A DNA stretch of 64,000 bases, from positions 1 through 64,000 of the forward strand of contig JABBAI010000086.1 in assembly GCA_018608045.1 (NCBI GenBank), written 5' to 3'. Shown here piece after piece: positions 52,886-56,027 of the stretch. Position numbers and translations under genes: made by a program. The notes below the pieces were generated by a model that saw nothing but the letters and a program-made list of their open reading frames with translations, was not told where the DNA came from and ran no database searches. Origin of the DNA: Octadecabacter sp. GTDB lineage: Bacteria > Pseudomonadota > Alphaproteobacteria > Rhodobacterales > Rhodobacteraceae. The first letter of the stretch is position 1; each line of letters starts with the position of its first letter.

Positions 52886-53347
52886 ATGACACGCCCCATT
52901 CGCACCCGCCCGATCAGATTGGCCGCCCGCGCCGTAATTTTGCACGATGACCGATTGCTGTTGGTCAATGCCTACAAAGGACGCGGCGATTTGTGGTGCG
53001 CGCCCGGTGGCGGGGCCAAACCGCACGCCAGCCTGCCAGAGAACCTTGTCCGCGAGGTGTTTGAAGAAACGGGACTGACCGTAACGGTCGGCGCGCCCTG
53101 TCTGGTGAATGAATTTCACGATCCCGCCCGCGACTTTCATCAGGTTGAAGTTTTCTTTCGATGCACTCTGCGCGCAGGCACGCTTGATCCCGCGTGGGAA
53201 GATCCGGAAGATATCGTATCGCTGCGCCGCTGGGTCATGCGCGCTGAATTGCGGGATATGGCCGTGAAGCCCGATGCATTGGCTGCCGTGGCATGGGGCG
53301 ATGTTGATGCCCCAACCTACGATCCGCTTGAGGCAATTGTGCCCTGA
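52886..53347 (+). CDS. NUDIX hydrolase
   Basis: Nudix box GGGAKPHASLPENLVREVFEETGL. Confidence 0.92.
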   Translation: MTRPIRTRPIRLAARAVILHDDRLLLVNAYKGRGDLWCAPGGGAKPHASLPENLVREVFEETGLTVTVGAPCLVNEFHDPARDFHQVEVFFRCTLRAGTLDPAWEDPEDIVSLRRWVMRAELRDMAVKPDALAAVAWGDVDAPTYDPLEAIVP

Positions 53348-53372
53348 TAGAACTACCAGTATTGGCCCAGCC

Positions 53373-53401
53373 TTGAAACGAAGCAGGAACATCCATATAT
53401 A
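53373..53401 (+). promoter_or_regulatory. Promoter-like sequence for the 44-aa ORF
   Basis: TTGAAA-N17-TATATA; also reads as a heat-shock-sigma-like CTTGAAA-N14-CCATAT. Confidence 0.5.
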
Positions 53402-53451
53402 CCTAACAGGCCCGTCTTGGTGACGCGCTCCAACCCATGGAAGGAACGACT

Positions 53452-53586
53452 ATGCTGCAATATTTGCGCGCATTGAGAGGACAACTCCCAAAAATTCAAT
53501 TTCTATTCAGCTTAAAGAGGCTCGTCGAAAATTTGACGGATCTCATTGAATGGATTCCTGCTTTACAGACTTTCTTAGGCGGTTAA
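53452..53586 (+). CDS. Candidate small protein, 44 aa, not in ORF track
   Basis: MLQYLRALRGQLPKIQFLFSLKRLVENLTDLIEWIPALQTFLGG*; SD AAGGA 6-7 nt before ATG; promoter-like element upstream; terminator 6 nt after stop. An in-frame ATG at 53437 would give 49 aa. Confidence 0.55.
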   Translation: MLQYLRALRGQLPKIQFLFSLKRLVENLTDLIEWIPALQTFLGG

Positions 53587-53591
53587 CGGAA

Positions 53592-53619
53592 AAGGGCGAC
53601 TCCGTTAGGAACCGCCCTT
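53592..53619 (+). terminator. Terminator directly after the 44-aa ORF
   Basis: AAGGGCG-N14-CGCCCTT followed by CTTTGTT. Confidence 0.65.
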
Positions 53620-53719
53620 CTTTGTTCGTTTGGCACACGGGTCTTAGCTCTCGTCGTTTCCGCGAAACAACTGCCGCTAAGCTTCCGTAATCCTCATTTT
53701 CCCGACGAGAAAAAGTGGA

Positions 53720-55372
<1,653 letters not shown>

Positions 55373-55703: not shown

Positions 55704-55756
55704 TATAACAGCTCCTTGCTTATAGTTTTCAATTCTCTAGCCCCTATTCGGGACCA

Positions 55757-55783
55757 TTAGCACTCACATCATGCGAGTGCTAG
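55757..55783. promoter_or_regulatory. CIRCE element (HrcA operator) upstream of groESL
   Basis: TTAGCACTC-ACATCATGC-GAGTGCTAG; matches consensus TTAGCACTC-N9-GAGTGCTAA except the last base. Confidence 0.95.
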
Positions 55784-56027
55784 CAGAGGGTAGTTAGGCA
55801 TGTGATGGAACCAAGTCAACAGGTGGGTGTGTGGTTTTTTGAACTGGCGTCAAACAAGGCTGACATTGGCGGATCAGCCCCGCGCTGCATGGCCCCATTT
55901 GATCGCACTTAACGGGCACCCTTAAATTGGTTTCACCATCTGCGGCCCGCCAGGTTGGAATGGCCCTCGCTCCCGAATGCATCAGCCGCTACACTTCAAC
56001 ACGCAAAGTTCACCAAAGGGGCCCATC

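Follow-up and report, generated by a model that had tools for sequence, protein, structure and literature searches.

Does the gap between a nudix hydrolase gene and groL in Octadecabacter sp. harbor a small gene of its own? We addressed this within a 64,000-nt stretch of DNA (the window; contig JABBAI010000086.1), in which the nudix gene (52886..53347, plus strand; Pfam NUDIX, 3.9e-15) runs toward groL (groEL; 53720..55360, minus strand; Pfam Cpn60_TCP1, 4.1e-79), a convergent adjacency that is kept in the genus. A previous sequence-only reading had described a self-contained transcription unit at 53373-53619, and the parts that it listed are all found in the sequence: an RpoH (sigma-32)-like promoter, CTTGAAA-N14-CCATATAT, matching 12 of 14 consensus positions (53372..53400, plus strand); a Shine-Dalgarno (SD) sequence AAGGA (53441..53445, plus strand) with an ATG 6 nt further on; an open reading frame (ORF) of 44 aa, MLQYLRALRGQLPKIQFLFSLKRLVENLTDLIEWIPALQTFLGG, downstream of nudix on the same strand (53452..53586); and a hairpin at 53592..53619, not assigned to either strand, that folds as AAGGGCG..CGCCCTT and was passed over by an automated terminator scan because its T run is interrupted. 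An in-frame ATG at 53437 would yield 49 aa, and the 44-aa start is preferred because this upstream ATG has no SD in front of it.

Comparison with other members of the genus shows that the unit is not self-contained. In two relatives (G008 and G015), the nudix stop is directly followed by the hairpin, reading TAACGAAAAAGGGCG, and the counterpart in the window is TAACGGAAAAGGGCG, where it forms the ORF stop and the hairpin. Because the ORF stop and hairpin match the nudix stop and hairpin of relatives, the ORF sits in a lineage-specific insert; the simplest reading of the sequences is that an AT-rich segment of ~239 nt (roughly 53345-53583, plus strand, both ends approximate) entered between the final codon of nudix and the old stop and terminator, and that the ORF stop and the terminator immediately behind it are both inherited from nudix. 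A convergent nudix/groL hairpin terminator occurs in nearly all genus genomes with a readable gap and probably terminates in both directions. By this sequence comparison the hairpin predates the ORF and is borrowed from nudix/groL: a terminator does follow the ORF stop, as had been proposed, but it is not the ORF's own, being present in relatives that lack the ORF. Moreover, nudix and the ORF have no terminator between them, so that the ORF also lies within the nudix 3′ region and read-through from nudix is expected.

The insert is missing from all comparable gaps in the genus, where the terminator lies close behind the nudix stop or the sequence is unrelated, and it is single copy in its own genome. 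An origin as a repeat or a mobile copy was considered and rejected, given this single copy, no plasmid match and only short chance matches to phages. Other genus members hold unrelated inserts in the nudix-groL gap, including a ~100-aa ORF (L044), tandem hairpins (L036), ~250 nt of other DNA (L047) and what we take by eye to be a transporter-like, EamA-like gene (L042); these show that the gap tolerates insertions. Such tolerance between two converging genes is what would be expected if the insert were non-functional, that is, a neutral stretch, specific to this lineage, of the nudix 3′ untranslated region in which a promoter-like site and the ORF arose by chance, an explanation that we regard as a serious one, if somewhat doubtful.

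The lack of homologs points in the same direction. The sequence-only reading had proposed to judge the peptide by conservation of its reading frame in relatives, and tblastn-type searches were negative at every rank: the ORF is encoded in none of 18 other genus genomes, and no homolog of the peptide was found in 397 family, 395 order and 385 class genomes, in which matches stayed at noise level. The best class-level match had an E value of 0.015 per genome (385 genomes), and family matches with E values of 0.1-3 per genome were dismissed as noise, most of them lying inside long unrelated frames. Peptide-pattern scans of GTDB species and IMG/VR, which required near-exact stretches and hence address close relatives only, returned none, and the peptide is absent from plasmids, phages, Pfam, NCBIfam, PHROGs, PADLOC and PDB, with no Pfam family, DUF1127 included, at E≤1. 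A Foldseek search with a single-helix model gave no match, which carries little meaning for such a model either way.

The composition of the ORF likewise favors the neutral explanation. Host-like codon usage was tested and not found: the codon score of −0.067 ranks at the 4th percentile among the genes of the window and the 68th percentile among shadow frames, so that the codon usage is unlike that of host genes and not separable from that of shadow frames, and the GC content is 40% and falls well short of host genes at each of the three codon positions. The length of the ORF alone is not unusual, as 11% of dinucleotide-shuffled versions of the insert contain an ATG ORF of at least 44 codons. 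An ORF of this length together with an SD-like 4-mer occurs in 1.5% of the shuffles, and promoter, SD and ORF occur jointly in 0.005% (5e-5), a combination chosen post hoc, after inspection of the sequence. The rarity in shuffles of the window's best RpoH-like promoter, a correctly spaced SD and an ORF argues against the neutral explanation.

On both strands of the 64-kb window, the site at 53372-53400 is the sole one with a consensus score of 12/14, and 0.01 matches to CTTGAAA-N11..15-CCATAT are expected by chance. In Rhodobacter sphaeroides, TTG at −36..−34, A−12, T−11 and T−9 were shown to be important for RpoHI, and C−37 is enriched in the RpoHI logo (PMC3441632); the window site has CTTG at −37..−34, A−12, T−11 and T−9, and thus all key RpoHI positions. 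The proposal of an RpoH-like CTTGAAA promoter upstream of the ORF therefore stands as a good sequence match. The same study warns that a sequence match alone does not predict RpoHI promoter activity (PMC3441632), and a score-12 RpoH-like site also occurs by chance inside the terminator of a relative (L040). The accompanying sigma-70 reading, TTGAAA-N17-TATATA, is weak, and a consensus promoter scan does not list the site. Judged by its sequence, the candidate ORF is probably under an RpoH promoter. Elsewhere in the window, an RpoH-like site of the type CTTGCGC-N14-CCCCATAT with a score of 11 lies at 50093-50065 on the minus strand; the minus-strand ORF downstream of it is, by eye, presumably an hsp20 small heat-shock gene.

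The position of a heat-shock promoter beside groEL had been considered suggestive, and shared regulation does not follow from it. Ahead of groES, a CIRCE-like inverted repeat, CTAGCACTCGCATGATGTGAGTGCTAA, is found at 55740-55785 on the minus strand, and groESL is probably under an HrcA-type control separate from the ORF. Because groESL has this operator of its own and runs in the opposite orientation, convergent to the ORF, the nearby groEL is no sign of shared regulation.

As to the peptide itself, AlphaFold2 run without an alignment predicts a single helix over residues 3-42 (mean pLDDT 80.6), and the hydrophobic moment is moderately high, being equalled by 3.7% of shuffled peptides. The description of an amphipathic helical peptide is thus supported by a predicted helix and a modest amphipathicity. 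A membrane-associated small protein is possible but finds no support in the hydropathy, the best 19-residue mean being only 0.81. Type I toxin-antitoxin systems encode small membrane or amphipathic peptides, and the ORF product resembles such toxins in its short length and its Leu-rich, amphipathic character. Unlike them, it has no transmembrane stretch by the same hydropathy measure and no antisense RNA promoter, as the promoter scan reported none opposite the ORF, on the minus strand; it is also single copy in the genome and has no match in PADLOC defense-protein models. A membrane peptide of the type I toxin kind, paired with an antisense RNA, is therefore very improbable.

A close known parallel is the CcaF1-CcsR operon of Rhodobacter sphaeroides, which shares with the locus a short ORF with an RpoH-type promoter before it and a terminator after it in a Rhodobacterales genome (PMC10253847). 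CcaF1, however, is a conserved RNA-binding protein of 71 aa, of the DUF1127 type, that is expressed from an RpoHI/RpoHII promoter and followed by four sRNAs (PMC10253847), whereas the 44-aa ORF is confined to a single lineage, has no Pfam match and has no sRNAs downstream. The existence of such RpoHI/RpoHII-driven sRNA operons in Rhodobacter (CcsR/ccaF1; PMC10253847) lends some credit to another explanation, in which the product is not an mRNA but an RpoH-dependent small RNA or an RNA derived from the nudix 3′ untranslated region, ~215 nt long and ending at the hairpin. Promoter and terminator would fit this explanation, and the transcript folds better than most of its shuffles (z −2.08, 6 of 200). 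On the other hand, no Rfam match was found up to E=1 over 53300-53760, the insert has no relatives and thus no conserved structure, and an SD and an ORF are unexpected in a pure sRNA. We consider the small RNA unlikely.

The ORF also resembles orphan, that is, taxonomically restricted, small genes, since it is AT-rich and short, has atypical codons and no homolog, and lies in a permissive gap; for most orphan small genes the promoters are unknown, whereas the 44-aa ORF has a specific match to a stress sigma factor in its sequence. We regard it as a candidate orphan small gene of modest interest. A young orphan gene, possibly RpoH-controlled, in a lineage-specific insert before an old terminator is the reading to which we lean, tentatively and at somewhat short of even chances. 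In this reading, the AT-rich segment of ~239 nt would either have carried an RpoH-type promoter, an SD and an ORF of 44 codons with it or have acquired them later, and the ORF stop came to lie against the old terminator that nudix and groL share. Transcription by RNA polymerase bearing a heat-shock sigma factor may start near 53409, additional transcript may arise by read-through from nudix, and the transcript would end at the borrowed terminator, at ~53625. Low-level translation would then give a 44-aa amphipathic helical peptide, perhaps peripheral to the membrane. We infer transcription, RpoH control, translation and any role of the peptide from these features, and the chance that a real orphan peptide is translated is, in our estimate, a little under one half.

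What is conserved in this gap among relatives is, from the sequences, not the ORF region but a structured RNA hairpin after groEL (53641..53684, minus strand), outside the interval 53373-53619 of the sequence-only reading. Its outer and inner stems are separated by a GGCA/GAGA internal loop. When 14 sequences from the genus are compared, standard pairs fill 98.5% of the pair cells, and 10 of the 14 pairs show changes on both sides. The covariation score is 0.498, compared with 0.210 for shuffled and at most 0.106 for slid controls, although the structure was picked by inspecting the same 14 sequences, which favors it somewhat. A covariance model gives E=3.6e-13 for this hairpin (R1); at E≤0.1 each of the 19 genomes of the genus has matches, and at the stricter E≤0.01 so do 48 of the 298 family genomes. 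One genus genome (G002) has 85 matches, but these do not represent 85 independent insertions, because the same insertion sequences, present in several copies, account for many of them. A further hairpin spans the groEL stop codon (53689..53721, minus strand; groEL 3′UTR fold, z −4.1), and similar hairpins are visible in most relatives.

Copies of the 3′UTR hairpin are also seen at other places. A second copy in the same genome (C99:156-202, L213; also L209) lies right after the stop codon of a gene that we take, by eye from its C-terminal sequence, to be tuf (EF-Tu), and, as in the groEL case, a stop-codon hairpin comes before it. Another copy in the same genome lies beside a gene that is, again by eye from the C-terminal sequence, presumably transglycosylase-like, and the same holds for G004 and G006 (L210, L215, L216). 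Tandem copies are found in the nudix-groL gap of L036 and, three in number, beside the transglycosylase-like gene of L216.

Dispersed elements of ~37-40 nt have the same core, in the order outer stem, GGCA, inner stem, GAGA and outer stem. An IS256 transposase gene of Sulfitobacter indolifex carries a 39-nt copy, which the 91%-identical element of S. dubius lacks; the copy is in frame, splits the IIA-DDH stretch and shows no evident target duplication. Similarly, an IS3 element of G002 carries copies of 40 and 37 nt when compared with Falsihalocynthiibacter. The dispersed copies comprise these clean insertions in IS256 and IS3 transposase genes together with pattern matches (L114, 1501-1535; L103; L096; L097; L123-L200), and empty sites are available for the IS256/IS3 insertions (L119, L120 and L121). 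GTDB genomes contain 76 stretches that fit one strict pattern; their ends are sharp across 62 different flanks, and nearly all of the stretches are alphaproteobacterial by record title, one, a MAG, being labeled Haliea. As a rule, the element has not inserted into genes, because its excision gives back a longer open frame at just 7 of 49 sites. RAYT was considered as the driver and rejected, as the presence of Y1_Tnp (PF01797) is uncorrelated with the hairpin copies: it is present in G002, G003 and G025 and absent from the copy-bearing genomes G000, G006, G012, G085, G094 and G107, in which the association of a REP/RAYT system is thus not found. No Rfam match above gathering was found for the element in L213, L210, L114 and L103, nor any up to E=1 for the groEL copy, which lies within the searched stretch 53300-53760, and a literature search by sequence and by topic, whose scope left out most subscription papers, found no description of it.

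Because the groEL hairpin and the dispersed elements have a common core, with a GGCA/GAGA loop and GTTT/AAAC in the inner stem, we infer that they share descent. By its sequences, the hairpin family is a dispersed alphaproteobacterial one of ~40 nt that is absent from Rfam. That the groEL hairpin is a fixed copy of a mobile mini-hairpin family repeatedly adopted as a 3′UTR RNA element is a proposal whose chances we put as even.

These results suggest that the ORF is a clear example of how a possible new small gene may arise when it comes to lie in front of a terminator already in place, and they caution that a terminator beside an ORF may belong to the neighboring genes. In our view, the groEL 3′UTR hairpin is a more interesting discovery than the ORF and deserves a separate study. 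Since a covarying RNA after groEL also occurs as ~40-nt insertions, it raises the questions of how so short an element moves and of which protein or RNase recognizes its GGCA/GAGA loop.
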